Shown here: positions 8,265 to 54,312 of the stretch, piece after piece
Numbering within the stretch: position 1 is the first letter of the stretch
Layout of the letters: every line of letters starts with the position of its first letter
The notes under the pieces: model-generated
Database searches by the model: none
Told to the model about the DNA's origin: nothing
The model's input: only the letters and a program-made list of their open reading frames with translations
Source: Desulfovibrio legallii
Lineage (GTDB): Bacteria; Desulfobacterota; Desulfovibrionia; Desulfovibrionales; Desulfovibrionaceae
Length of the DNA: 64,000 nt
Direction: 5' to 3'
Assembly: GCF_004309735.1 (NCBI RefSeq)
Contig: NZ_SIXC01000002.1
Span: forward strand, 70,489-134,488
Position numbers and translations under genes: made by a program

Positions 8265-8903
8265 CTATTCAACCTCTTTGTCAAGGATTTCACCCTTGTA
8301 GATCCACACCTTGACGCCAATGATGCCGTAGGTGGTGCGCGCTTCGGCAAAGCCGTAGTCAATATCGGCGCGCAGGGTCTGCAGGGGCACGCGGCCGTCG
8401 CGGTACCATTCGGTGCGGGCGATTTCCGCGCCGGCCAGTCGTCCGGCGCAGGTCACCTTGATGCCTTCGCCGCCGAACTTGCGGGCCATGGAAACCGTGC
8501 GCTTCATGGCGCGGCGGAAGGCCACGCGGCGCTCCAGCTGCTGGGCGATGTTTTCGGCCACCAGCTGGGCGTCCACTTCGGGACGACGGATTTCATTCAC
8601 TTCCAGCGAAAATTCGCGGCCGAATTTCTGGCGCAGGTCGGCGCGCAGTTTTTCAATTTCCACACCCTTGCGCCCGATGACGATGCCGGGACGGGCCGTG
8701 GACAGGATGAGCCGTACCTTGCCGCCGGCGCGCTCGATTTCGATTTTGGAAAGCCCCGCATGATAAAGGAGCTTTTTGACGAACACGCGGATTTTGCTGT
8801 CCTCGTAGACAAAGGCAGGGTATTCCTTCTTGCTGAACCAGCGGGACTGCCAGTTTTTGTTGTACCCAAGCCGGAACCCGAACGGATGTACTTTCTGACC
8901 CAT
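8265..8903 (-). CDS. rpsC: 30S ribosomal protein S3
   Basis: 212 residues. It has [20 protein letters not shown] at the N-terminus, a KH domain around [20 protein letters not shown] (GRKG loop) and the C-terminal domain with [21 protein letters not shown]3 lines the mRNA entry channel. Three bases separate it from rplV. Confidence 0.99.
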
Positions 8904-20008: not shown

Positions 20009-21487
20009 ATGTCCGCACCTCTGCTTACTCTTGAAGACGTCAGCCTGTTTCTGCCCGGCGACGCCAGTCAGACCCTCGTTCTGCACCATATCGCCTGGAC
20101 TGTGGAGCAGGGCCGCCACTGCGCCCTCTTGGGGCCCAACGGTTCGGGCAAATCCACCTTGCTGCGGCTGTTGCGCGGCGAACTCTGGCCCGCTGCCGGC
20201 CACATTTTCTGGCACGGCCCCGAAGGCCCGGAGGAAGCCCCGCTGGCCGGCCGGGCCATGACCGCCCTGGTTTCCCCCGCCCAGCAGGAAAACTACCAAC
20301 GGCAGGGCTGGGATCTCACGGGCCGCGACCTGCTGCTCACGGGCTTTGCCGACACGCCCCTGCTCTACACCGCACCCCAGCCCGCCCGGGAAGAAGCTGT
20401 GGAGGGCATGGCCCATCGCCTGCAGGCCCAGGGCCTGCTGGAACGGCGCATGCCCACCCTCTCACAAGGGCAATTGCGCCTGCTGCTGTTGGGCCGCGCC
20501 CTGCTGCGCGCGCCGGAACTGCTCTTACTGGACGAATGCGCCGAGGGCCTGGACTCCCGGCACAGACAAATCTTTTTTGACGTGCTGGAAGAACACGCCG
20601 CGCGCTGCACCGTGGTCATGAGCGCCCACCGGCCCAGCCAGATACCCGCTTGGTGCGCGGAACGCCGCTACCTGCGCCGAGGCCGCCTGCTTACGGCCCC
20701 GCCCGCCGAAGAATACGCTGCGGACAGCGTCGCCGCGATTGCGCCGGTGGCGCCCGCGCCCCCTACGGCTCCTGAGGCGCGGGGACATGTCCTTTTGGAT
20801 CTGGAACAGGCCACGGTCTTCATTGACCGGCAGGAGACGCTCCACCAGATCACCTGGAGCCTGCACCGGGGCGAACACTGGCGCATCACCGGAGCCAACG
20901 GTTCCGGCAAATCCACCTTGCTGCGGCTGCTGGCCGGGGACGAATTTGTGGCCGCCGGAGGGCGGCTGGAATACTGGCTGCCCGGTCAGGGCGGCCCGGT
21001 AACCACCCTGGCCCAGGTGCGCCGGGGCGTACGCCTGGTTTCCGATCTCTCCCAGGCTCTGTACGGCTATACCCTTACGGCCGGGGACATGGTCTGCACC
21101 GGCTTTGACAACAGCATCGGCGTCTACCGCCGCTTTACCCCGGCCGAACGGGCCGAGGCGGCCAGCCACATGGCCTTCATGTTTCCCGAAGAAGACGCGG
21201 CGGGGCTGACGTGCCTGGCCGGCCGCTCCATCCGCCAGCTTTCCACCGGACAGCTGCGCCGCCTGTTCCTGGCCCGCGCTCTGGCCGGCGGGCCGGACAT
21301 TCTGCTGCTGGACGAGCCCTGCTCCGGGCTGGACGCGCCAAGCCGCGCCCGCTATCTGCGCCTGCTGGACCAGCTGGCCGCCCGCGGCCTGCACCTGGTC
21401 TTTGTTTCCCACCACAGTGAAGATGCGCCTTTGTGCATCAACCGCGAAGCCCGCATGGAAGACGGCCGACTGCGCGTCCTGATCTAG
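20009..21487 (+). CDS. ABC ATPase with two nucleotide-binding domains in one chain (ModF/PhrA-like)
   Basis: 492 residues from the ATG at 20009, no membrane segment. Both halves are complete. The first has Walker A GPNGSGKST (42-50), signature LSQGQLRLLLLGRALL and Walker B LLLLDECAEGLD (note Cys after the catalytic Glu). The second has GANGSGKST, LSTGQLRRLFLARAL and ILLLDEPCSGLD. The order and spacing fit ModF-type soluble tandem ATPases linked to molybdate genes, but no molybdate gene is near. The stop codon TAG is the first three bases of a family A repeat. Confidence 0.8.
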   Translation: MSAPLLTLEDVSLFLPGDASQTLVLHHIAWTVEQGRHCALLGPNGSGKSTLLRLLRGELWPAAGHIFWHGPEGPEEAPLAGRAMTALVSPAQQENYQRQGWDLTGRDLLLTGFADTPLLYTAPQPAREEAVEGMAHRLQAQGLLERRMPTLSQGQLRLLLLGRALLRAPELLLLDECAEGLDSRHRQIFFDVLEEHAARCTVVMSAHRPSQIPAWCAERRYLRRGRLLTAPPAEEYAADSVAAIAPVAPAPPTAPEARGHVLLDLEQATVFIDRQETLHQITWSLHRGEHWRITGANGSGKSTLLRLLAGDEFVAAGGRLEYWLPGQGGPVTTLAQVRRGVRLVSDLSQALYGYTLTAGDMVCTGFDNSIGVYRRFTPAERAEAASHMAFMFPEEDAAGLTCLAGRSIRQLSTGQLRRLFLARALAGGPDILLLDEPCSGLDAPSRARYLRLLDQLAARGLHLVFVSHHSEDAPLCINREARMEDGRLRVLI

Positions 21488-21612
21488 CGCAGTTAGCGAA
21501 TGAAATGAGCTAACTGCTCTGCAAGGATTTTCTTGAAAATCCTTGCCACAAAATGCGAGAAGGCAGGCTTTTGCCTGCCGTAAGCGAGCATTTCAAGTGT
21601 TGAATGCTCTAG
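21485..21612 (+). repeat. Family A repeat, copy 1 (128 bp, four hairpins)
   Basis: One of four 128-bp copies in the window. In order it has hairpin 1 (GCAGTTAGC/GCTAACTGC, loop of 11), hairpin 2 (GCAAGGATTTTC/GAAAATCCTTGC, loop of 2), hairpin 3 (GGCAGGC/GCCTGCC, TTTT loop) and hairpin 4 (GAGCATT/AATGCTC). The outer ends are TAG...CTCTAG. Base 21485 is the T of the ABC ATPase stop codon, so the element starts at the stop. Confidence 0.95.
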
Positions 21613-21814: not shown

Positions 21815-21849
21815 ACGGCCGCGTCAATGTCCTCGACGCCGCGGGCAGA

Positions 21850-21903
21850 CGGCGGGCGTCTGCCTACGCAAGCGCCAGGGCCTTGCAACGCTGCAAAGGC
21901 CTA
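21850..21903 (-). repeat. Family B repeat, copy 1, directly after the metY stop
   Basis: On the minus strand, right after the metY TAG codon, a hairpin GGCCTT(T)GCA/TGCAAGGCC is followed by CCTGGCGCTTGCG and then GCAGACGCCCGCC. The same layout is found after the Cache gene (32238) and after tamB (34262). Bases in the stem differ between copies while pairing is kept. Confidence 0.85.
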
Positions 21904-27108: not shown

Positions 27109-27236
27109 TAGAGCAGTTTACGAATGAAATGAGTTAATTGCTCTGCAAGGATTTTCTTGAAAATCCTTGCCACGAAATGCGAGAAGGCAGGCTTTTGCCT
27201 GCCGTAAGCGAGCATTTCAAGTGTTAACTACTCTAA
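27109..27236 (+). repeat. Family A repeat, copy 2 (128 bp)
   Basis: Same four-hairpin layout as copy 1. The first hairpin has mismatches (GCAGTTTAC/GTTAATTGC) and hairpin 4 is partly eroded (CTACTC). Hairpins 2 and 3 are unchanged. It lies alone between the convergent hynC and thiF genes, enclosed by two family C palindromes pointing at each other. Confidence 0.95.
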
Positions 27237-27238
27237 AA

Positions 27239-27312
27239 GAGAAAGTTTTTTTGAAGGATGGGGGCGTGGGGGGGAAGGGAACTTTTGTACACAAAAGTTC
27301 CCTTCCCCCCAC
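27239..27312 (-). terminator. Family C repeat, copy 2: terminator-like palindrome after thiF
   Basis: On the minus strand: GTGGGGGGAAGGGAACTTTT pairs with AAAAGTTCCCTTCCCCCC (27312-27266), then a CACGCCCCCATCC and TTCAAAAAAACTTTC tail. It starts 18 bases after the thiF stop. Tail sequence matches copy 3 almost base for base. Confidence 0.85.
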
Positions 27313-27330
27313 AAAAAACCTTCCCTCTGC

Positions 27331-27936
27331 CTATTCTCCGTCCAGGATCATCTCAAGTACGGCGTCGGCCAGGAGGGCGGCGGCTTCGGTAACGCGGGGG
27401 GCCAGAGGCGGGGCCACAAGAATATCGGTAGTAAAATCGCCCACAAGAACAAGGTTGCCCAAGCTGCGGCGGCTCATGGGCGCGCCGCCGCAGCCGCCCA
27501 TGCCGGAGGCGCTGGCCACGCGGCGGTCCAAGAGCAAAGCGTTTTCCACCAGCAGGCTTTTATCGTCCGGGCCGTCCAGGGCTTCCACCCAGATGGGGCA
27601 AACGGGCAGGATTGCGGGCAGGTTTTGGGGCGTAAGGCGTTCCTGGCGGGTCTGGACGTCCAGATCGGGGTTGAGTTCGCACAGTAATTCGGCCAGAGCC
27701 TCCACCTTAGGGCGGCCCACATGGCGGGGCCAGTACTGTTGGCGATTGAGGTTGGAAGCCTCCACCAGATCGTGATCCACCAGCAGCAGATGCCCCAGGC
27801 CACAGCGGGCCAGCATGAGGGCGGCGTTGGAGCCAAGGCCCCCGGCCCCGGCCACGCCCACCCGCGCGGCGCTAAGTCGGGCGCGCTGTTCCGGGGTGAA
27901 GTAACGTTCCAGACCGGTGTGCAGAAGATTGGGCAT
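27331..27936 (-). CDS. thiF: ThiF-family adenylyltransferase (short form)
   Basis: 201 residues. The E1-like nucleotide-binding motif GVAGAGGLGSNAALMLARCG and the following DHDLVEASNLNRQQY (catalytic Asp and Arg region) are clear. It lacks the CxxC zinc pairs of the longer MoeB/ThiF proteins, as in the small ThiF group associated with anaerobes. It would adenylate the C-terminus of ThiS for thiazole sulfur transfer. No thiS, thiG or thiH is adjacent, so a different sulfur-carrier partner is possible. It starts nine bases after the chemotaxis receptor gene, so the two may be co-transcribed. Confidence 0.8.
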   Translation of the reverse strand: MPNLLHTGLERYFTPEQRARLSAARVGVAGAGGLGSNAALMLARCGLGHLLLVDHDLVEASNLNRQQYWPRHVGRPKVEALAELLCELNPDLDVQTRQERLTPQNLPAILPVCPIWVEALDGPDDKSLLVENALLLDRRVASASGMGGCGGAPMSRRSLGNLVLVGDFTTDILVAPPLAPRVTEAAALLADAVLEMILDGE

Positions 27937-27945
27937 GGGATTTCC

Positions 27946-29703
27946 CTACTGGGCGCGCAGGCTGCCCATGAGGTCCATAAGGTTGCGGGTCTGGGCGGCC
28001 AGGTCGGCCACGGCCCGGGCGGCTTCGGTCATGGCCTGGGCGGTCTGGGCGGACATCTGGCTCACCTGACCCATGGTGCGGTTGATTTCCTCGCTGGCGG
28101 CGGACTGCTCTTCACTGGCCGCGGCAATGGCCCCCACCTGGTCAGCTGTGGTTTCCACCGTGCTGACGATAGCCTCCAACGCATCGCCGGACTGACGGGC
28201 AAAGTTTGTGGCCGCACCGATCTGCTCCACCGCCTTGTCAGCCGAAGCCGCACTCTGTGAAGCGCTGCCCTGGATGGCCTGAATAGCCGCGCCCACGTCA
28301 TGGGTGGAGGCCATGGTCTTTTCAGCCAGCTTGCGCACTTCGTCGGCCACCACGGCAAAGCCGCGACCCGCCTCGCCGGCACGGGCGGCCTCGATGGCGG
28401 CGTTGAGGGCCAGCAGATTAGTCTGATCCGCAATATCTGAAATAACGCCCATAATGCGGCTGATGGCCTGGGTATGCTCCTCCAGTCGGGCCATATCTGC
28501 CTTGAGGTCCAAAGAAACGTGCTGCACGGCGTCGATGCTCTGCAGCGAACGGCGCACCACCGCAGCGCCGCTTTCGGCTTTTTCACGGGTTTCGGCAGAG
28601 GCTGCGGAGGCTGCGGCCGCGTTTCTGGCCACCTCCTGGACAGTGGCGTTCATCTGGGTCATGGCCGTGGCGGCCTCGGAAAGGCGCTGCGAGGTTTCCT
28701 GCGCGCCCCGGTCGGACTGCTCGATCTGCGCGGCCAGCACGGAAGAGGCCGAAGAAACCACCTGGGCCACTTCTTCCAGGCGCAGGGCAGCTTCGCGCAT
28801 GGCCTGGGTCCGTTCCGCGGCCTGCTCCCCGGCTTCTTCGGCCTGCTGCAGAGCTGCCGTGGCCTTTTGGGATTGGGCTCGCGCGTTTTCCGATTCGCGG
28901 CGGGCCTGTTCCATATGTTTTTTCAGGGCCGCCACCATGGCCGTCATGTGGGCGTACACCCCGGTCTTGGGTCCGTCGTCGTTATAGCTGTAGTCTCCTT
29001 CGGCCACCCGCCGGGCAATGACGGCCAGCTCGCCGGGATCCTTACCCAACTGCAGCCCCACGGAACGCGTGATGCGCCAGGCAATGCCCAGGCTGATGAG
29101 CACGGCGGCCAGGGCCAGGGCCACCGTCATGCGGCGGGCGCGTTGGCCGATTTCCGCCGCCTGCCGCGCCACTTCGCGGCTGCCCGTGACGTTGAGCTCC
29201 ACGGCCTGGGCGTAGGTTTTGCCCAGTTCGTCGAATACGGGCCGGTACTTGCTGTTGAACAGGGCGTTAGCCGGGCCGCGACGGCCGTCCAGCATATTTT
29301 TGACCAGTTTGGCGCGGATGGCGTCCTCTTCTTTGGACAAATCGGCAATGCGGGCCATGAGCGCCTTGTCGCGGCTGTCCGAAGCCGCCGGCTGCACATC
29401 AATAAGGGTGGCATAGAGGGCATAGTTCTTCTGGATGTCCGCCAGGGAAGCGGCCAGACTTTTTTCGTACTTGCGGATTTCATCCACATAGGTCTGCGAG
29501 AGGATAGAGGCCAGGTCGGCCCGCACGGCATTGAGGTCCACGTTCATAGACTGGATAGCAATGACCGAGGGCAGCCAGACGGCGTCCATTTCGTCGATGC
29601 GCTCGTTCATGGCGGCAATATTGCGCAACGCCGCCGCAGAAAGCACCAGAAGCACGGTGATGACGCAGCAAAACGATAAGGCCAGCTTGGTGCTCAATTT
29701 CAT
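27946..29703 (-). CDS. Methyl-accepting chemotaxis protein
   Basis: 585 residues from the ATG with GGAG seven bases before it (an ATG six codons upstream lacks this). TM1 is at residues about 7-27, then a helical periplasmic sensor of about 160 residues resembling the four-helix-bundle type, TM2 ([18 protein letters not shown]) and HAMP. The signalling tip is intact: [20 protein letters not shown] followed by [20 protein letters not shown]. The C-terminus has no CheR-binding pentapeptide. The ligand is unknown. A sigma-28-like promoter precedes it. Confidence 0.93.
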
Positions 29704-29805
29704 GGGCGTTCTCCAGCGCATATTTCAGGACGGCCGTCGGCAAAATCCGGGCCGCACCCGGCAGCGTAAAAAAAACGTTTGCGTGGATATTTTTTGCACT
29801 TTTCC

Positions 29806-30159: not shown

Positions 30160-32205
30160 ATGTCGGACGCCGGAACGCGCACGCAGACCTCGCTGAAGAC
30201 CCTCCTTCCCCTTATGCCGGAAATCCGGCGCTGCCAGGATGTTTTTGCCCAGCTGGAACGCAAGTGGACCTGGATTGCCCTGACAGGCAAGATCAACTGC
30301 AACGCCATTGCGGCCACCCTGTTCGACTTCATCTTCAAGACCAGAGACACCTTTGCCGCCCTGCGGCAAAACCTCTCCGCCATGCTGGCCGAAAAATCTT
30401 TGGACAGGGCTATCCGGGAAATGGCCCCCGTGGCCCAGGTGGCCATTGACATCATCAAGCGTAATCTCTACGAACGCACGGCGGACGTGAGTTTTTTGGC
30501 CACCGACGCGGATATTGTCCATTTTCTCTGTCATCCCCGGCCGGACGCGGCAGCCATGCGCGAGCGGCTGGCCGCCTATCGCGCCAACTACACGGTGTAC
30601 CAGGATATTCTCATTCTGGACCCCAACGGTAATGTGCGCGTGCAGCTGGACACGCGCCGGCCCGTACGCCGTTCGTGCGACCCGCTTATCGCCCAGGCCC
30701 TGGCCTCGCATGAATATGTGGAAGCCTTCGGCCAGACGGATCTGGTTCTGGACGGCCGTGCGGCATTGGTCTACGCCCACGCCATCCGTGCGGAAGGCGA
30801 AAGCGCTCCTTTGGGCGTGCTTTGCCTGGTCTTTGATATGGACGGCGAGGTGGCGGATCTTTTCGCCGGGCTGTCCCGCTTTGCCGACGACATGGTCATT
30901 CTGCTGCTGGACGACCAGGGCACAGCCTTTGCCGGCAGCGACAAGGCCCTGGCCCCCTTGGGCCGCCGCTACCGCCCTTCGCCCCAGGACGGCTATGCCG
31001 TGACCCGCTTCGGCAACGAAACGGGGCTGGCGGTAACCCGAAGTTCAGCGGGCTATCAGGGTTATACGGGCCAGCACTGGCAGGCGCATGTGCTGCGCGG
31101 GGCCTACAGCGCCTTTGCCCGCCGCCGTGCGGAAACCGGCCTGGATACGGCCCTGGTGCGGCGCGAAGCCGAATTTTCCAGCCAGCTCATCAGCATTGAA
31201 GAACAGGCCGGGGATGTGCTGGGCGACCTGACTCTGGCCGCCCAGAATGGGCAGATCATGGCCGCCCGCCAAAGCTCCAACGCCAAGGAAGAAGAACGCG
31301 GCGCGGCCCAGGCCCTGCCGCCCATTCTGGACGCCGTACGCCAGATGGGCGGCCAGATGGAACGCGAATTCCACTATTTTACCGACGGGCTGCTCAATAC
31401 GGTTACGGCCTCGCGCCTGCGCGACGCGGCCTTTCTGGCCTCCATCACCGTGGAAATCATGGACCGCAACCTTTACGAGCGCGCCAACGACTGCCGCTGG
31501 TGGGCCCTGACCCGCGACTTCCGCGCCGCTCTGGCCAAGCCCGCCCTGGACCCGCAGGATCTGCGGCAACTGGAAGGCATCCTCGCCTACATCAACAGCT
31601 ACTACACGGTCTATGCCAACCTGTTTCTCTACAACGCCCAAGGGAACATCTTGGCCTGTTCGCAGGAGGCGGAACGCTTCCGCTACGGCAGCCAGGTGGC
31701 CGAAGACTACGCACGCCGAACCCTGAGCCTGGACCACCCGGAAGACTACGCCGTTTCCGCCTTTCGGCCCACCGATCTCTACCATCCTGCAGGCGAGCCG
31801 CAGCCGACCTACATCTACAGCGCGCCGGTCTTTCCTCTGCAGGGGGGCAGGCCCGTGGGCGGCATAGGCATTGTGTTCGACGCCCTGCCCCAGTTTGGCG
31901 GCATGCTGCAGGAAACCCTGCCCAAAGACGCGCAAGGCGTGGTGCGCAAGGGCGCTGCGGGCCTGTTTGTGGATGCCGGGGGCACCGTCATCGCCTCTTC
32001 TCTGCCGGACCTGCCTCCGGGCGCGGCCTATCGCCTCCACAAGGAATGGCTGACCCTGGACGAAGGCGAAAGCCGTTCCTATCTCGAATCGCAGGCGGGC
32101 GTGCTCTACGCCATGGGCTGTGCGCGTTCGCGCGGCTACCGCGAATACAAACGCGACAATCGCTACCGCAACGACATGTACTGCGTTATGCGGCTGCCCA
32201 TCTGA
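30160..32205 (+). CDS. Duplicated Cache-like sensor protein without membrane or output domain
   Basis: 681 residues from the ATG giving MSDAGTRTQTSLKTLLPLMP. The same module occurs twice: NLYERTADVSFLATD at 102-116 with YTVYQDILILDPNGNV at 144-159, and NLYERANDCRWWALT at 437-451 with YTVYANLFLYNAQGNI at 482-497. These are hallmarks of Cache (PAS-like) ligand-binding domains. No signal peptide, membrane helix, kinase, GGDEF or receptor tip is seen, so it is probably a cytoplasmic sensor acting through a partner. Neighbours are a chemotaxis receptor and a diguanylate cyclase. An upstream ATG 30 codons earlier lacks a ribosome-binding site. Confidence 0.65.
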   Translation: MSDAGTRTQTSLKTLLPLMPEIRRCQDVFAQLERKWTWIALTGKINCNAIAATLFDFIFKTRDTFAALRQNLSAMLAEKSLDRAIREMAPVAQVAIDIIKRNLYERTADVSFLATDADIVHFLCHPRPDAAAMRERLAAYRANYTVYQDILILDPNGNVRVQLDTRRPVRRSCDPLIAQALASHEYVEAFGQTDLVLDGRAALVYAHAIRAEGESAPLGVLCLVFDMDGEVADLFAGLSRFADDMVILLLDDQGTAFAGSDKALAPLGRRYRPSPQDGYAVTRFGNETGLAVTRSSAGYQGYTGQHWQAHVLRGAYSAFARRRAETGLDTALVRREAEFSSQLISIEEQAGDVLGDLTLAAQNGQIMAARQSSNAKEEERGAAQALPPILDAVRQMGGQMEREFHYFTDGLLNTVTASRLRDAAFLASITVEIMDRNLYERANDCRWWALTRDFRAALAKPALDPQDLRQLEGILAYINSYYTVYANLFLYNAQGNILACSQEAERFRYGSQVAEDYARRTLSLDHPEDYAVSAFRPTDLYHPAGEPQPTYIYSAPVFPLQGGRPVGGIGIVFDALPQFGGMLQETLPKDAQGVVRKGAAGLFVDAGGTVIASSLPDLPPGAAYRLHKEWLTLDEGESRSYLESQAGVLYAMGCARSRGYREYKRDNRYRNDMYCVMRLPI

Positions 32206-32237
32206 CCGCAGCGCTCTAAGGCAGCCGGCACATCCAG

Positions 32238-32425
32238 GGCATTGCAGCGCTGCAATGCCCTGGCGGTTGCGGAAGCAGACGCCCGCCATAGAGGCACAAA
32301 CGCAGCTGCAGCTGTTGTGACGCGGGCGCTGCGGATGAGGACAGCAGCGCAATGTCTTTGCGCGGGTAAGCGCCGGAATGAGCGTGCCGTAAACTTTGAG
32401 AAGACATATTCTCAAAGGTAATCTG
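32238..32425 (+). repeat. Family B repeat, copy 2, extended form
   Basis: Starts about 30 bases after the Cache stop. It has the perfect 24-base palindrome GGGCATTGCAGC/GCTGCAATGCCC, then CCTGGCGGTTGCGGAAGCAG and ACGCCCGCC. After about 50 variable bases comes a second conserved box (32343-32408) from AGCGCAATGTCTTTG to GTAAACTTTGAGAAGACA, ending in hairpin CTTTGAGAA/TTCTCAAAG. Confidence 0.85.
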
Positions 32426-32485
32426 CTCCATGACTCGCCTTGACGCGCATCCGCCCGTTCCGCTCCTCCGTGCGGCGCTTCGGTC

Positions 32486-32515
32486 TTGACGGGTCGAATA
32501 CTTCCTAGCTATCAT
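32486..32515 (+). promoter_or_regulatory. Candidate promoter of the GGDEF gene
   Basis: TTGACG (32486-32491), 18 bases, TATCAT (32510-32515; five of six consensus positions). It is 46 bases before the ATG and lies just downstream of the family B repeat. Confidence 0.6.
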
Positions 32516-32560
32516 TCTCAGTTCAAACGTTTTACACACCCGGCTTGCAGGAACCGCGCC

Positions 32561-33994
32561 ATGAACCAGACTTTGTCCACAGAGCTTTTGCCGGAATGGC
32601 AGAGGATCGTCGACCTCATTGCCCATATCGCCAAGGTGCCCGTGGGCCTCATCATGGGTCTGCGGGACAACACCCTCACCGTGCTGGTTTCCAGCCGCAC
32701 CAAGGGCAATCCCTACCGGGCGGGCGAAACGACCAGCCTGCCCGACTCCGGGCTCTACTGCGAGCACGTCATCCGGTCGCAGCAGGCTTTGCAGGTTCCG
32801 GACGCGCTGCAATCCCCCCAATGGGACCATAATCCCGACCTGGCTCGCCACATGGTGGCCTACCTGGGCTTTCCCGTGCGCTACCCGGACGGCACGCCCT
32901 TTGGCACCATTTGCCTGCTGGACAGCAAAGAACACCACTTTTCGCAAGAAGTCACTGAACTTATTGAACGAATGCGCGCCCTCATTGAGGGCAATCTCAA
33001 AATGCAGAACCTGCTCAATCAGAACGCCAAAAGGGTGTCTGAAATCCACGAAAAAAACCAGAGGCTGGAAAAGCTCCTCCAGGCCCTGGACGAAAGCGAA
33101 AAAAAATTCCGCTTTATTACCGAAAATACCGTGGACTTCATCTGGATGTACAATGTCAGCAAGAGACGATTTCTCTATGCAAGCCCAGGCCTCAAGCAGC
33201 TCACCGGGCAGGAGGCCGAAACTCTGCTCACCATGCCTCTTCATAATATTGTACTGCCGCAGTATCTGGACAACATTAAACGCAATATGCAGAATGCCGT
33301 GCGCAAGTTGCGGGAAAACCCCACTACAGAACCCGTTTCACAGAGTGAAATTCAGCAGTATCGCGTGGACGGCAGCGCCGTGTGGGTAGAATACAAAGTC
33401 AAATATCTGATCAATCAGGAAGGGGACGTGGAAGCGGTGGGCGTCAGCCGCAATATTGAAGAACGCAAACGCAGGGAACAGGAAATCAGATTCCTCAGCA
33501 CCCACGACTATCTGACCAAGACGCACAACAGGCTGTACCTGTATGCCGAGGCTCGCAAAGAAATAGCCTTGACGGAACGGAGCGGCCGCCCCCTGGCCAT
33601 GCTCTTTTTTGACCTGGACGGCTTCAAGGCCGTCAATGACCAGCACGGCCACGCCGTAGGCGACGCGGTGCTGCAGCGGACCACCCATGTGGTGATGCAA
33701 AACCTGCGCAAATCCGACGTGCTGGCCCGCTACGGCGGTGAAGAGTTTGTCGTCCTCATGCCGGACATGCCCCTGGAGGCGGCCCACAACGCGGCCGAAC
33801 GCATCCGCCTGGCCGTGGAAGCCGAACCCATGCCCAAGGGCCTGACCATGACCGTCAGCATCGGCGTGGCCGTACGCGCCCCCCACGAAAGTCTGGAACA
33901 GTGGGTAGACCGGGCGGACAGGGCTATGTATGAGGCCAAGGACCAGGGCCGCAACTGCTGTATAGTCAGCTCTTCGGCCCCACCCGGCCCCTAG
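32561..33994 (+). CDS. GAF-PAS-GGDEF diguanylate cyclase
   Basis: 477 residues, cytoplasmic, from the ATG with AGGA nine bases before it. GAF domain at about 10-145 (LYCEHVIRS and YLGFPVRYPDGTPFGTICLL). A coiled linker at 150-180 leads to a PAS domain at 180-305 (VDFIWMYNVSKRRFLYASPG and a PAC-like segment). GGDEF domain from 310: DYLTKTHNRLYLY, FFDLDGFKAVND, active GGEEF at 392-396. The inhibitory I-site RKSD is at 383-386, exactly five residues before it, so product feedback by c-di-GMP is expected. No EAL domain. Its TAG stop is supplied by a family A repeat. Confidence 0.93.
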   Translation: MNQTLSTELLPEWQRIVDLIAHIAKVPVGLIMGLRDNTLTVLVSSRTKGNPYRAGETTSLPDSGLYCEHVIRSQQALQVPDALQSPQWDHNPDLARHMVAYLGFPVRYPDGTPFGTICLLDSKEHHFSQEVTELIERMRALIEGNLKMQNLLNQNAKRVSEIHEKNQRLEKLLQALDESEKKFRFITENTVDFIWMYNVSKRRFLYASPGLKQLTGQEAETLLTMPLHNIVLPQYLDNIKRNMQNAVRKLRENPTTEPVSQSEIQQYRVDGSAVWVEYKVKYLINQEGDVEAVGVSRNIEERKRREQEIRFLSTHDYLTKTHNRLYLYAEARKEIALTERSGRPLAMLFFDLDGFKAVNDQHGHAVGDAVLQRTTHVVMQNLRKSDVLARYGGEEFVVLMPDMPLEAAHNAAERIRLAVEAEPMPKGLTMTVSIGVAVRAPHESLEQWVDRADRAMYEAKDQGRNCCIVSSSAPPGP

Positions 33995-34119
33995 AGCATT
34001 TAACACTTGAAATGCTCGCTTACGGCAGGCAAAAGCCTGCCTTCTCGCATTTCGTGGCAAGGATTTTCAAGAAAATCCTTGCAGAGCCGTTAGCTCATTT
34101 CATTCGCTAACGGCTCTAG
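33992..34119 (-). repeat. Family A repeat, copy 3 (128 bp, inverted)
   Basis: Reverse orientation relative to copies 1, 2 and 4. In hairpin 1 the stem reads GCCGTTAGC/GCTAACGGC where copies 1 and 4 have GCAGTTAGC/GCTAACTGC: a paired change that keeps base pairing. Bases 33992-33994 are the GGDEF stop codon. Confidence 0.95.
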
Positions 34120-34124
34120 AGCAG

Positions 34125-34262
34125 CGCACCCTTGGGAATTGTCTTCTCAAAGTTTACGACACGCTCGTTAGCGCTTAACGACACAAAGACATTGCGCTTA
34201 ACCTGCGTGACGGGCGCCTGCTTACACAACCGCCAAGGCCTTTCAAAGTTGAAAAGCCCCGA
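34125..34262 (-). repeat. Family B repeat, copy 3, extended form
   Basis: On the minus strand, starting 19 bases after the tamB stop: hairpin GGGCTTTTCA/TTGAAAGGCC, then CTTGGCGGTTGTGTAAGCAG and GCGCCCGTC, then the second box AGCGCAATGTCTTTG to GTAAACTTTGAGAAGACA. It is inverted relative to copy 2, so the two bracket the GGDEF gene. Confidence 0.85.
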
Positions 34263-34280: not shown

Positions 34281-37200
34281 TCAGTAATTGTACTTCCAGC
34301 GAAAGCCGCCCCAGGTGCCGCCCTCTTCCGTGCGCAACTCCAGGTTGGCGCGCGAGGTCAGCTCCCATTGGATGATGAAGGCGGTACTGCCCTGCTTCAT
34401 GCCCTGCTGTACGCCCACATAAAGCTCTTCTGTAAGGTATTTGCCCATTTCCACAGAAGCGCCGGCGGTCATATCCTCACTGTTCTCGCCGGACCCGCCG
34501 GACGTGCTCCGCCCGCTGTCCGTATTAAGGCGCAGCACATCCACGCCCAGCGTCTTGCGACCCAAATCTGAAAAGCTGCCCCCGCCGCCGCTGCCAAAAC
34601 CGGCCAACTGGGCCACGGCTGCGGCCAGGCGCAGGTTTTCCAGCCGCCCCAGTTCACTGGTGCTCTTGCCAAACAAAATCTGGGCCAGGATCTCGTCCCT
34701 GGGCATTTCCGGCTCGCTACGCAGCGCCAGCTGCAGTTTGCGCGCGGTGCCAGTGAGGGCAATGTAGGCCGTAAGCTCCGGCGTTTCATTGCTCAGCAGC
34801 AGATCCAGCATGGGGTTGCCGGGCGAACCGCCGGCAAAGCCCACCCGGCCGCGCGACAACTTGAAATTTTTGCCCATGAAGTCCAGGCTGCCTCTGGCCG
34901 CCTCCACCTGACCGTCAATGATGGGCGCGGCGGGCGTACCGCCCACATGCATGTCAGCCCGCCAGACGCTCTTCAGCCCGTACCCTTCCACGGAAAACCG
35001 GCCGGGCATGACCAGGCGCAGGTCCAGCAGACCGGCGGGCTCTGTGGCTTTGGCCGGTGGCGCGCCCTTGGTTGAAGGCGGAGATGCGGCGGATTTGGCC
35101 GCCGCCGGGGCCGGAGCCTCGCTGAGGGGCAAGGTGGTCACCGTGCCCGTTACCGCCAGCTTGTTCAGCCAGACTTCGCCCTGATTCACGCGCACTTCAC
35201 CGCGCACTTCCGGGGCCGCAGCCGTGCCCGTTACCGCGACTCGGCCAGAAAGGTCCACGCGCACGTCGCGCCGCCGCAAAGGCCGCAGCCGGTCCAGAAC
35301 CGTCACAATATCCAGGCCCGCACCGTCCAGGCCGGCCTGGCCCGTGACCCGCAGGCTGCCGCCAAGGCCGTCGGCCGCGGCCAGACGCAGACGGGCCTTG
35401 CCCGGCTTCATGCCTTGCTGTTCCAGATCCACCCGCAGGTTGATGTCCTGCAGTTGCGCGCCCAGCTGCACATTTTCGTAGCGGCCGCCGTCCATCTGCA
35501 CAAAACCCTTGACCGCCGGGGCTGCCGGACTGCCGCCCAAATCCAGAGAAAGATCCAGCTGTCCGCCCAGGCGCTGGTCCGCCACGGGCACCAGGCTCCA
35601 AAGCGGCCCCACCGCCCCCTTCCAACGCACCACCCCTCTCAGGGGGCCGTGCATATCTGGCGTAGGCAGACCGTCCGGCCCAAACCGCAGAGGCAAACGC
35701 GCCTCCAACCGACAAACGCTGCCGCCCAGAGCCCGCACGCTTTCCGGGTCCAACAGCAGACGCAGGGCCAGGGCATCCCCACCGCCGCGCTCTATCTTGC
35801 CTGTAAGGGTCAAATGCAGGGGCTTGAGCGGGCTGTTGGGCAGCCGCAGATCCCGCACCTCCAGGCGCAGGTCGCCGCCAGGGGCAGCGGCCTTGCCGCT
35901 GAACTGGACCTGCGCCGCCACCACGCCTTCGGGCACGGCCTCCGCCAGGGTTCGCCAGGGGGTCAAATCCAGATTTTCCAAAGAGAGCCGCGCCGTCATC
36001 CCCGTTGCGTCCTTGCTGCCCTGCGCCCGCAGCCGCCCCGAAGGGCTGAGCCGCAAGTCCAGGCCCTCCAGGCCGAAGCCGTCCTCGCCGTAGCGCAGCT
36101 GCAAACCGGGAGCCGCCGTGAAGCCCAGCTTTTTCTTCTCCAGGCGGGCCTCCAGGCGGTCCACCACAACGCTGCCGGGCTGCCAGCGCAAGGCCGTATG
36201 CGCGACCACAAAGCCGCTGGTCCGCAGTTCGGCGTTGAGGGGGCCGTGCAGTGAACCCTGGGCGCGCAGATGCGCCCCCAGCTGCAAGGCGGCCTGCCGC
36301 AACTCCGTCAGGTCCAGGCTGGCCTCGGCCAGGGCCTTGCCCCAGAGGTCCGCCAGCCGCACCGTGCCCGCAAGCCCACGCACCTGCAAAGGCTCCGCCC
36401 CCGCCGCCGTGTAGACAAGACGCGGCACGCGCCAGCCCAACGTCACCCCCTGCACTGCGGGCACGGGGGCGACGGGCGCGGTGGACGTCGACGGCAAGGA
36501 GGACGTCTGCAGCCCTGAAGGCTGCGGGGCGGGAGACGGTGGAACGGCCTGCGCCACCGCTGTGGCCGCAGACGGCTGCGCCGCCGGGGGGCGGAACGCA
36601 TCCGTGGAAGAACCGGAGGAAGTAGCGGCCTGGGAACGCAGCTGCAGGGAAAGGGCCGCCTCGCCGGAAAGGCGTGCGCCGGGCAGCAGAGCGGCAAGGG
36701 CCTGCCAGTCGGCCACGCGCACGCTCAGCTCCCCGTCCAGCGCGGGGTAGGGGTTGCCCTGCGGCAGTACGGCGCACACAGCGCCCGTAGCCGCCACACC
36801 CGCCGTCAGGCTGGAAAGTTCACGCAGCCCCGCACGCAGGTCCGTGCCCGCGCGCGCAGCAAAAAGCACGGCATGGGTTTTGAGTGCCCGCCCGTCCAGC
36901 GCGCCGACAAGGTCCAGAGTCACGGTCAGCTCCGGAGCGGCGGCCGACGAAGAAGCCCCGGTCGCGACGGGCGCAACAACGGGTGCGGCATCGGGCTCAT
37001 CCGGTCCGTTGCCCCGCTCCCCGGCCGCGGAGACAGGTTGCAAAACTGCGGCCGCCGTACTGCCGGAGGCACTGACCTGCGCACTTTCGGCGGGAGCCGC
37101 GACGTCGGCCGGCGTCGGCAGCAGCGCTGTCCAGCGCAGGGGCTCGGCCGCAAGCCGCAGGGTTGTGCCTGTCAGGCTGTGGCCCCCGGCGCGCACATTT

Positions 37201-38789
37201 GCACAGTCCAGCGTGAGCAGGGTGCGGGGCGCTGCCAGCGGCCCCTGGGCGGTCAGGTCCAGGCGCAGGGGCGCGCCCAGCATATCCAGGGGTGAGGCGA
37301 CGCCCTGCGCGGCGGCAACGGCGGACGCCTCGCCCGAAGCTGGAGCGGATGCTGCCTGCGTGGTTGTGGTCGCCGGAGTTGCCGCGGCAGGCGGGGTCAG
37401 GCCCACGCCCAAGGCCAGATCCAGAGGGCCGCTCAGCCAGGAACCTGTGGCCGGGCTGGTCCAGACGGCGTGGCCGTCCACCTGCAGCGGCCCCGCAGTC
37501 AGGCGCAACGCTGTAAGCCCGGCGGAAAGCCCTGTGGCCGGACCCGCGTCCTCAGGTGCGGTGAGCCCACCCTCCAGGCCCAAGGTCAGGGCCGCGCCTT
37601 GGGCCAGCACAGCGGCGGGCAGGCCGGCGGCCTGCGACGCGGTTCCGGCGGGTGCCGGGGTCAGGGCGGCCGTAAGGGAGGCCGTGGCCTTGAGGGACGC
37701 GCGCCCCCCCTGCCGGACCGGGGTCAAAGCCGCTTCCGCCTGCAGTGACGCGGCGGCGCAGACGGCGCCGCTCAAAAAGAAGGCCGCGCCCGTGGTTGGG
37801 GCCAGCGTGGCCATGGCGCGCAGGTGCGCGCCTGCCGTCCCCGCCTGCGCCTGCAGTGTCAGATCCACGCGTAAAGTCTGCGGCGCGGCCGGGGCCGGAT
37901 TTGCAAGGGCCGCCCCGTCGCCCACGGGTGTGGCCTGTGCTGCCGCGTTGTTTTCGGACGTCAGTTTTTCGGGCGCAACCTTCGCCGACGGGCTCTTTGC
38001 AGCCGCCCCTTGCTCCGATGAACTGTTCTCCGGCCCGGACAGCGCCGATGCAGACGGCCCGGGCGCGGGCGGCAGGCTTGCGCCCAGCAGGTCAGCGGGC
38101 AGACGCGCGTTTTCCAGGGCCACTTCCTCCAGGCGCACCTGGGGCAGCCAGCCGGGCAATTGCGCCGCTGCCCGCACCGCTTGCCCCAACAACTGCCGCA
38201 AGCCCGCTTCAGTGAGCGGAGGCGTAGGCTCCGGCGGCGGGCCGGGCGGCAGCTGTGGCCGCCGCAGCAATGTCGCATTCTGCACGCGCAGTTCCGCAAT
38301 GCGCAAAGCCCCCGGCAGGGCCTGCCAGTCCCAGACAAAGCGCACGCTGGGCACCCGCAGCCAGAGGCCCTGGCCGTCGTACAGCTCCAGCCCCAGCTGT
38401 GCGCCGAAGGGCAGCGGGCCCGCAAGACTGGTGATGCGCACGCGCAGACCTTCCGGCGCGGCGGGCGCTTCCGCAGGCGCGCCGGGCGGCGGAACAGAAC
38501 CGGCGTCCAGGGTGACAGGCCGGTCCAGGGCGGCATTGATCCGTTCCACCAGCCAGCCCTGCACCGCAGGGCTGCGCAGGGCCAGCACCGCGCCGACCGC
38601 AACCAGGGCGAGCAGCAGCACCAGGCCCGCCAGCACACGCCACAGGACGCGCCAGATCCGCCACCAGGCGCGGGGCCGGACAGGGGGCCGGGCCGGGCCG
38701 GAAGCCGGTGGGCCGACGGGAGCCGACGGCTGCGGGGGACGGACGTCGGGGCTGGCGTCCGGAAAGCGGGGAGGAGTGGGAGCCGCCAT
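34281..38789 (-). CDS. tamB: TamB-like translocation and assembly module protein
   Basis: 1502 residues. A proline-rich N-terminus is followed by a membrane anchor at about 48-70 (VLAGLVLLLALVAVGAVLAL). The long middle is beta-strand-rich with Ala/Pro-rich low-complexity inserts (about 245-310 and 480-800). The C-terminal 300 residues are the TamB (DUF490) domain: FSVEGYGLKSVWRADMHVGG, AARGSLDFMGKNFKLSRGRV and DEILAQILFGKSTSELGRLE, ending in an aromatic KYNY. TamB spans the periplasm and, with TamA, inserts outer-membrane proteins or moves phospholipids. Its ATG overlaps the tamA stop (TGATG). Confidence 0.93.
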   Translation of the reverse strand: MAAPTPPRFPDASPDVRPPQPSAPVGPPASGPARPPVRPRAWWRIWRVLWRVLAGLVLLLALVAVGAVLALRSPAVQGWLVERINAALDRPVTLDAGSVPPPGAPAEAPAAPEGLRVRITSLAGPLPFGAQLGLELYDGQGLWLRVPSVRFVWDWQALPGALRIAELRVQNATLLRRPQLPPGPPPEPTPPLTEAGLRQLLGQAVRAAAQLPGWLPQVRLEEVALENARLPADLLGASLPPAPGPSASALSGPENSSSEQGAAAKSPSAKVAPEKLTSENNAAAQATPVGDGAALANPAPAAPQTLRVDLTLQAQAGTAGAHLRAMATLAPTTGAAFFLSGAVCAAASLQAEAALTPVRQGGRASLKATASLTAALTPAPAGTASQAAGLPAAVLAQGAALTLGLEGGLTAPEDAGPATGLSAGLTALRLTAGPLQVDGHAVWTSPATGSWLSGPLDLALGVGLTPPAAATPATTTTQAASAPASGEASAVAAAQGVASPLDMLGAPLRLDLTAQGPLAAPRTLLTLDCANVRAGGHSLTGTTLRLAAEPLRWTALLPTPADVAAPAESAQVSASGSTAAAVLQPVSAAGERGNGPDEPDAAPVVAPVATGASSSAAAPELTVTLDLVGALDGRALKTHAVLFAARAGTDLRAGLRELSSLTAGVAATGAVCAVLPQGNPYPALDGELSVRVADWQALAALLPGARLSGEAALSLQLRSQAATSSGSSTDAFRPPAAQPSAATAVAQAVPPSPAPQPSGLQTSSLPSTSTAPVAPVPAVQGVTLGWRVPRLVYTAAGAEPLQVRGLAGTVRLADLWGKALAEASLDLTELRQAALQLGAHLRAQGSLHGPLNAELRTSGFVVAHTALRWQPGSVVVDRLEARLEKKKLGFTAAPGLQLRYGEDGFGLEGLDLRLSPSGRLRAQGSKDATGMTARLSLENLDLTPWRTLAEAVPEGVVAAQVQFSGKAAAPGGDLRLEVRDLRLPNSPLKPLHLTLTGKIERGGGDALALRLLLDPESVRALGGSVCRLEARLPLRFGPDGLPTPDMHGPLRGVVRWKGAVGPLWSLVPVADQRLGGQLDLSLDLGGSPAAPAVKGFVQMDGGRYENVQLGAQLQDINLRVDLEQQGMKPGKARLRLAAADGLGGSLRVTGQAGLDGAGLDIVTVLDRLRPLRRRDVRVDLSGRVAVTGTAAAPEVRGEVRVNQGEVWLNKLAVTGTVTTLPLSEAPAPAAAKSAASPPSTKGAPPAKATEPAGLLDLRLVMPGRFSVEGYGLKSVWRADMHVGGTPAAPIIDGQVEAARGSLDFMGKNFKLSRGRVGFAGGSPGNPMLDLLLSNETPELTAYIALTGTARKLQLALRSEPEMPRDEILAQILFGKSTSELGRLENLRLAAAVAQLAGFGSGGGGSFSDLGRKTLGVDVLRLNTDSGRSTSGGSGENSEDMTAGASVEMGKYLTEELYVGVQQGMKQGSTAFIIQWELTSRANLELRTEEGGTWGGFRWKYNY

Positions 38790-54184: not shown

Positions 54185-54312
54185 TAGAGCAGTTAGCGAA
54201 TGAAATGAGCTAACTGCTCTGCAAGGATTTTCTTGAAAATCCTTGCCACGAAGTGCGAGAAGGCAGGCTTTTGCCTGCCGTAAGCGAGCATTTCAAGTGT
54301 TAAATGCTCTAC
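54185..54312 (+). repeat. Family A repeat, copy 4 (128 bp)
   Basis: Same layout and 128-base length as the other copies; hairpins 1 to 4 all fully paired. Its right end (CTCTA) supplies, on the minus strand, the TAG stop codon of the cytochrome c3 gene. Confidence 0.95.

Follow-up and report, generated by a model that had tools for sequence, protein, structure and literature searches.

Inverted miniature repeats around a GGDEF gene in Desulfovibrio legallii are most likely scattered elements with IS630-like ends, not a mobile gene cassette

Introduction

The nearest known case to the two repeat families described here is RUP of Streptococcus pneumoniae together with IS630-Spn1, a likeness drawn from published description. 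RUP is a small non-coding pneumococcal repeat with about a hundred copies, ends like those of the IS630 family and insertion at TA, for which movement in trans has been proposed, and it is reported to cluster and nest with other repeats (PMC2229807, PMC3049150, PMC10969869). For ISY100, a member of the IS630 family, one report describes duplication of the TA target on insertion in vitro (PMC2170065). Like elements can also surround a gene, as in composite units with MITEs at their flanks, class 1 integrons being one example (PMC10969869).

Here we describe a locus within a 64,000-nucleotide stretch of the Desulfovibrio legallii genome (contig NZ_SIXC01000002.1, positions 70,489 to 134,488), hereafter the window, in which two copies of a repeat that we call family B bracket a GGDEF gene in inverted orientation, with a copy of a second repeat, family A, lying between them. 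Family A resembles IS630 and ISY100 in that a TA target is duplicated; unlike these insertion sequences, neither A nor B has room for a transposase gene, and we infer their mobility. The locus also differs from MITE-flanked composite units, in that a relative carries the gene at this very site with no elements around it and the two outer flanks are unlike each other. Titles and opening lines of abstracts on Desulfovibrio miniature inverted repeats, IS630 and MITEs mention neither family, a search whose scope took in few of the subscription papers. From their sequences, A and B appear to be new families of an element type, the IS630-type MITE, that is already known.

Results

The inverted B pair and its surroundings

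The features of the locus, and further copies of the two families in the window, are as follows, with positions counted from the first base of the window.

30160-32205, plus strand: Cache-domain gene, upstream of the GGDEF gene (Pfam dCache_1 match under the model cut-off; 84% identical orthologue in the sister species, G068)
32237-32428, plus strand: family B element B+, long form of 192 bp, with CA on both sides (right-box model R1, 109.7 bits)
32486-32515, plus strand: promoter-like site TTGACG-18-TATCAT, 5' of the GGDEF gene and downstream of B+ (consensus match only)
32561-33994, plus strand: GAF-PAS-GGDEF gene, a diguanylate cyclase by domain (Pfam; orthologue in G068)
33994-34116, plus strand: family A element of 123 bp with strong hairpins, with TA at 33992-33993 and 34117-34118
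34119-34259, minus strand: family B element B-, short form of 141 bp, whose right end adjoins the TA common to A and whose left end is flanked by CG
34281-38789, minus strand: tamB, convergent with the GGDEF gene, its stop codon 21 bp from B-
21485-21609, 27109-27233 and 54185-54309: further family A copies
21849-21901: family B fragment

An Omp85-type gene also lies in the neighbourhood of the Cache, GGDEF and tamB genes. The original prediction placed the second conserved box of family B near 32343-32408 on the plus strand and near 34145-34205 on the minus strand, and these coordinates fit: AGCGCAATGTCTTTG occurs exactly at 32346-32360 (+) and 34184-34198 (-), and GTAAACTTTGAGAAGACA exactly at 32389-32406 (+) and 34140-34157 (-), so that both strings are present in inverted orientation. 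The GGDEF gene, its promoter and a family A copy, said to lie inside the boxes, are all there, the promoter by consensus match only; a TTGACG box can be seen by eye upstream of the G068 GGDEF orthologue too. With up to three mismatches allowed, the longer conserved B string has only these two sites in the window, where 0.01 are expected, while the shorter has six against 1.9 expected, the exact ones being B+ and B-. At the pair, a repeat search recovers three inverted arms, 52, 30 and 28 nt long and 77, 93 and 86% identical, respectively.

In both copies the second box is the right-hand part of a longer element, and the first box (approximately 32237-32303 and 34194-34259) is part of the same two elements, each of which starts with a self-complementary GGGC end and finishes with TGCTC. 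B+ begins 31 bp past the Cache stop codon and, as it lies between that stop and the GGDEF promoter-like site, is probably outside the GGDEF transcript. B- sits where the GGDEF and tamB genes converge, and the TA at 34117-34118 is common to it and the family A copy. Rfam returns no match at gathering score within the window.

Family A and its TA target

Family A is 123 bp long and has at least 80 matches (from the best 40 of 117 candidates). Fifty-two copies could be read in the loci of the D. legallii genome, 45 of them complete at both ends. TA stands on both sides of 43 of the 45 complete copies, compared with a rate of 0.0004 for random 123-bp stretches of the window, a count in which the right-hand TA is part of the query and only copies reaching the query end (47 of 52) are included. 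C or T precedes the left TA in 46 of 48 copies, and G or A follows the right TA in 44 of 47, which gives the target as YTAR. IS630 itself reportedly prefers CTAG, going by the title of Tenzen and Ohtsubo 1991. The terminal inverted repeats of family A are GAGCNNTT (6 bases), with TGAAATG at both ends of the window copy, and since the complete copies are 93.6-100% identical to that copy the family looks young. Matches are present in eight of the ten genomes examined, frequent in G017 and G088 and absent from G036 and G068; in G068 there is none anywhere in the genome. A 25-base A pattern has no exact match in viral contigs.

An exact empty site of A is found beside an amidohydrolase gene, where G068 reads CTGCTT-TA-ATAGACC and D. 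legallii reads CTGTTC-TA-[A]-TA-ATAGACC, with [A] standing for the element. At this site a B element lies at the stop codon in both species (G068 locus L197, 8250-8620; D. legallii contig 5, locus L026, 1300-1820), A is present only in the window species, and the stop codon is TAG there versus TAA in G068. The same comparison at two more A sites of the window gives no clean empty site, G068 having TGA at the codon matching 21485 and an unalignable flank at 54309.

A chemotaxis-receptor gene and the amidohydrolase gene are adjacent in G068 (L197, 6532-9926), with B between them. In D. legallii the same two genes are on different contigs (window 27109-29721 and L026), each near an A copy or a B and A copy, and the split is a rearrangement breakpoint that coincides with A/B elements.

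Family B is dispersed and more varied

Family B is represented in the D. legallii genome by at least 54 matched pieces (from the best 40 of 161 candidates, some copies falling into several pieces). The right-box model matches 21 of the 79 genus genomes, in a search that scored 58 candidates per genome and so yields lower bounds for copy number, and the family is more varied than A. TA flanks 21 of 41 left ends and 21 of 45 right ends, and CA flanks 10 and 8, respectively; the window copies are flanked by CA/CA (B+) and CG/TA (B-). Duplication of TA, evident for A, is no more than probable for B, because about half of the B ends keep TA, B+ has CA on both sides and B- has CG on its left. The terminal inverted repeats of B, GGGCA...TGCTC, are weaker than those of A. 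Neither A nor B contains a transposase gene, and both are non-coding as judged from length. Judged by eye, the length of B varies with the count of a unit of about 25 bp in its middle (for example, at L018, L009 and L024), and that middle is missing from the short form.

The ends of A and B resemble those of an IS630-type element

A 995-bp IS630-type element in the congener G022 (L295) carries a DDE_3 gene in two frames and has the ends TAGAGCGTTTCAACTTTGAAATG and TAGAGCAATTCAACTTTGAAATG. With the TA excluded, the two ends of the window A copy share 16 and 13 of 21 bases with them. For B, the left ends share 18 (B-), 14 (B+) and, in another copy (L019), 19 of 21 bases, and the right ends 14 (B+) and 12 (B-). 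The transposase domain PF13358 is found in 28 of the 79 genus genomes, with no match in D. legallii itself or in G068, G017, G088 and G066. With the D. legallii assembly in 35 contigs, a repeated IS may have dropped out of it, but the one-contig genome of G088, which is rich in A, has no PF13358 match either. The B right-box model has no match in G022 or G098, the genomes with the best-matching IS. Taken with the TA flanks and the empty site of A, these ends make MITEs of the IS630 type (Tc1/mariner-like) the best reading of A and B, and their likely engine would be an IS630-type transposase.

The GGDEF gene is in place without the boxes in the sister species

In the sister species G068 the order Cache-GGDEF-tamB is the same as in the window, with amino acid identities of 84% for Cache, 74% for GGDEF and 81% for TamB over residues 780-1502. 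The gap between Cache and GGDEF is about 225 bp, and 56 bp separate the GGDEF stop from the tamB stop. When the right-box model is run over this 15.5-kb stretch it has no match in either gap; it matches at 8454-8536, beside another gene, together with a weak overlapping reverse match. G068 is rich in B elsewhere, with at least 58 matches (all 58 scored candidates match).

The C-terminal part of TamB is present in 68 of the 79 genus genomes, the nearest being that of G068 (87% over 400 residues). Among 20 tamB regions, Cache lies near tamB in G088, G066 and G023 besides G068, at distances of about 930, 1220 and 115 bp, respectively, with no GGDEF match. The N-terminal part of the GGDEF protein (302 residues) has matches in 4 of the 79 genus genomes, namely D. 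legallii, G068 (72%), G062 (56%) and, weakly, G084 (23%). The G062 homologue is at another locus, away from tamB, and the B model has no match around it. A comparison of the protein with named genomes, in which D. legallii and its nearest relatives were possibly left out, gave 27-50% identity over the best segment and no orthologue in the best 80 loci of 310 relatives, and in a comparison with a set of 60 relatives that did not include G068 all GGDEF matches were distant. The gene is patchy in the genus, but its presence is not tied to the boxes where this can be checked.

A second gene and a second repeat in the same gap

The Cache-tamB gap of G066 holds a GNAT acetyltransferase gene (L209, 7227-7808) that is bracketed by inverted repeats of about 150 bp, at L209 7025-7176 (+) and 7851-7980 (-), which are 77% identical. 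This repeat is dispersed, with at least 40 matches in G066 and at least 40 in G088 (from 40 scored candidates per genome). It shares 20 of its final 21 bases with the end of B+, and its ends agree with the IS630-type end in 14-18 of 21 bases. G088 has an orthologue of the acetyltransferase (70%; L208, 7303-7836) in the same gap, where the G066 repeat has no match and one string like the IS end (15/21) lies at the Cache stop codon. For both the GGDEF and the acetyltransferase gene, a relative holds the gene without the bracket.

The Cache-tamB gap appears to take up both genes and repeats. We read the two brackets, with some reserve, as two independent outcomes in a tolerant gap; the recurrence in G066 is less comfortably explained by chance scatter and favours something special about this gap. 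The setting also departs from that of RUP, in that the host of A and B has no IS630-type gene match, and A, B and the G066 repeat make several families with related ends.

Cassette, palindromic repeat or 3' element

The original prediction had raised the possibility of a mobilisable cassette carrying a c-di-GMP gene, with the inverted B copies as the ends of a composite transposon. The B pair is indeed inverted with like ends outward, the GGDEF gene is patchy, the acetyltransferase gene of G066 is bracketed in the same gap by inverted related repeats, and MITE-bracketed units are described in other bacteria (PMC10969869). We nevertheless regard a cassette as very improbable. Gene and ends are not present or absent as a unit, since G068 keeps the gene in place without boxes (one relative, rather than many), the G062 homologue is elsewhere with no B nearby, and the G066 repeat has no match in the G088 gap that holds the acetyltransferase. 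The outer flanks show no matching target duplication, being CA to the left of B+ and CG to the right of B-. Close inverted B pairs are, moreover, expected by chance: 56 merged B positions include two neighbouring pairs within 2 kb, both inverted, where random placing gives 2.28 pairs with 1.15 inverted, and six pairs within 5 kb, five of them inverted, where random placing gives 5.5 and 2.7. The bracketing is most likely ordinary scatter of repeats. The high copy number and the palindromes of A and B could also suggest repeats of the REP/BIME type, moved by a RAYT (Y1) transposase instead of a DDE enzyme, but this is, if anything, even harder to credit than the cassette, given the TA flanks, the exact TA-duplicating empty site of A, and ends like those of an IS630-type element.

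A further reading is that B and A are oriented 3' regulatory elements of the flanking genes, terminators or mRNA stabilisers, kept by selection. Placement gives this some encouragement, as 45 B copies classified with a home-made gene caller lie in 20 convergent, 22 tandem and 3 divergent gaps, while the gaps of at least 60 bp in the window comprise 6, 12 and 8, respectively. So does folding, which is far better than in shuffles for the window A copy (z of -8.5 and -9.0 on the two strands, with -60 kcal/mol at z -8.5) and more weakly so for B- (z of -2.8 and -3.6). In the left hairpin of B, ten cells are changed on both sides, a count reached by none of 500 shuffles, although seven are at one pair and the number of pairs with two-sided change is ordinary (162 of 500 shuffles). 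Against this, B is same-sense in 8 of the 22 tandem gaps and opposite in 14, scanning for terminators gives no hit within the elements, covariation in the right hairpin is weak (66 of 500 shuffles), and G068 has no elements at this locus. Self-complementary ends account for the hairpins and promoter avoidance accounts for the placing, and we consider selection for oriented signals unlikely. What fits better is that B insertions are tolerated close to the ends of genes and lost close to promoters. The original prediction's other suggestion, two independent 3' elements of Cache and tamB that happen to face each other, thus survives in its independence, which agrees with G068 and with chance pairing, whereas the label of 3' elements is at odds with the orientation counts. 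Because A folds very strongly, an effect of that family on transcript ends is plausible. A conserved RNA in the B boxes was considered separately and set aside, with RNAalifold consensus structures of 4 and 10 pairs and little covariation.

The A insertion supplies the GGDEF stop codon

The stop codon of the GGDEF gene, TAG at 33992-33994, consists of TA plus the first G of the A element, so that the insertion supplies the stop. As A elements start with G after the duplicated TA, an insertion in a YTAA or YTAG stop restates that stop as TAG. Of 93 junctions, 22 have a frame of 80 or more codons and GC3 above 0.7 that reads in phase into the junction TAG, and the other two frames give 8 and 9. 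With a stricter gene call, which misses genes cut by locus ends, 9 of 46 A copies are at stops, about the same as the 9 of 47 YTAR sites of the window at stops, a small background that includes stops made by A itself. We claim no enrichment of A at stop codons. The idea that family A uses stop codons as safe landing sites, giving genes new structured 3' ends, is a speculative one that we think doubtful. If true, the GGDEF gene and the amidohydrolase gene (TAA in G068, TAG with A) would illustrate how, across the genus, MITEs drive turnover of stop codons and 3' ends.

Discussion

We consider it very probable that the locus was built by separate, dispersed non-coding B copies and a later A copy, all MITEs of the IS630/Tc1-mariner type, around a GGDEF gene that was ancestral at this place. 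The ancestor shared with G068 would already have had the gene in its place between Cache and tamB, as suggested by the comparison with this one sister genome, and the B and A copies would have been added in the window lineage or, less simply, lost from G068. The boxes would be the right-hand parts of family B, a dispersed miniature transposable element present here in two separate copies, and the younger family A would have inserted later at the terminal TA of B-, an order that we infer from the layout. Insertion would use GAGCA-like inverted ends and duplicate a TA target, preferably YTAR, and movement would presumably be in trans, by an IS630-type transposase. The observations beneath this history are the repeat families with their ends and TA flanks, one exact empty site of A, and the gene without the boxes.

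This removes a likely false lead, that of a c-di-GMP gene cassette. What is gained in its place is a set of MITE families, all from one genus, whose ends are clear, along with an autonomous element related to them in a congener and an exact empty site. Together with its sister species, which has B but not A, D. legallii forms a usable pair for timing the arrival of such elements and for following how they land at gene ends.
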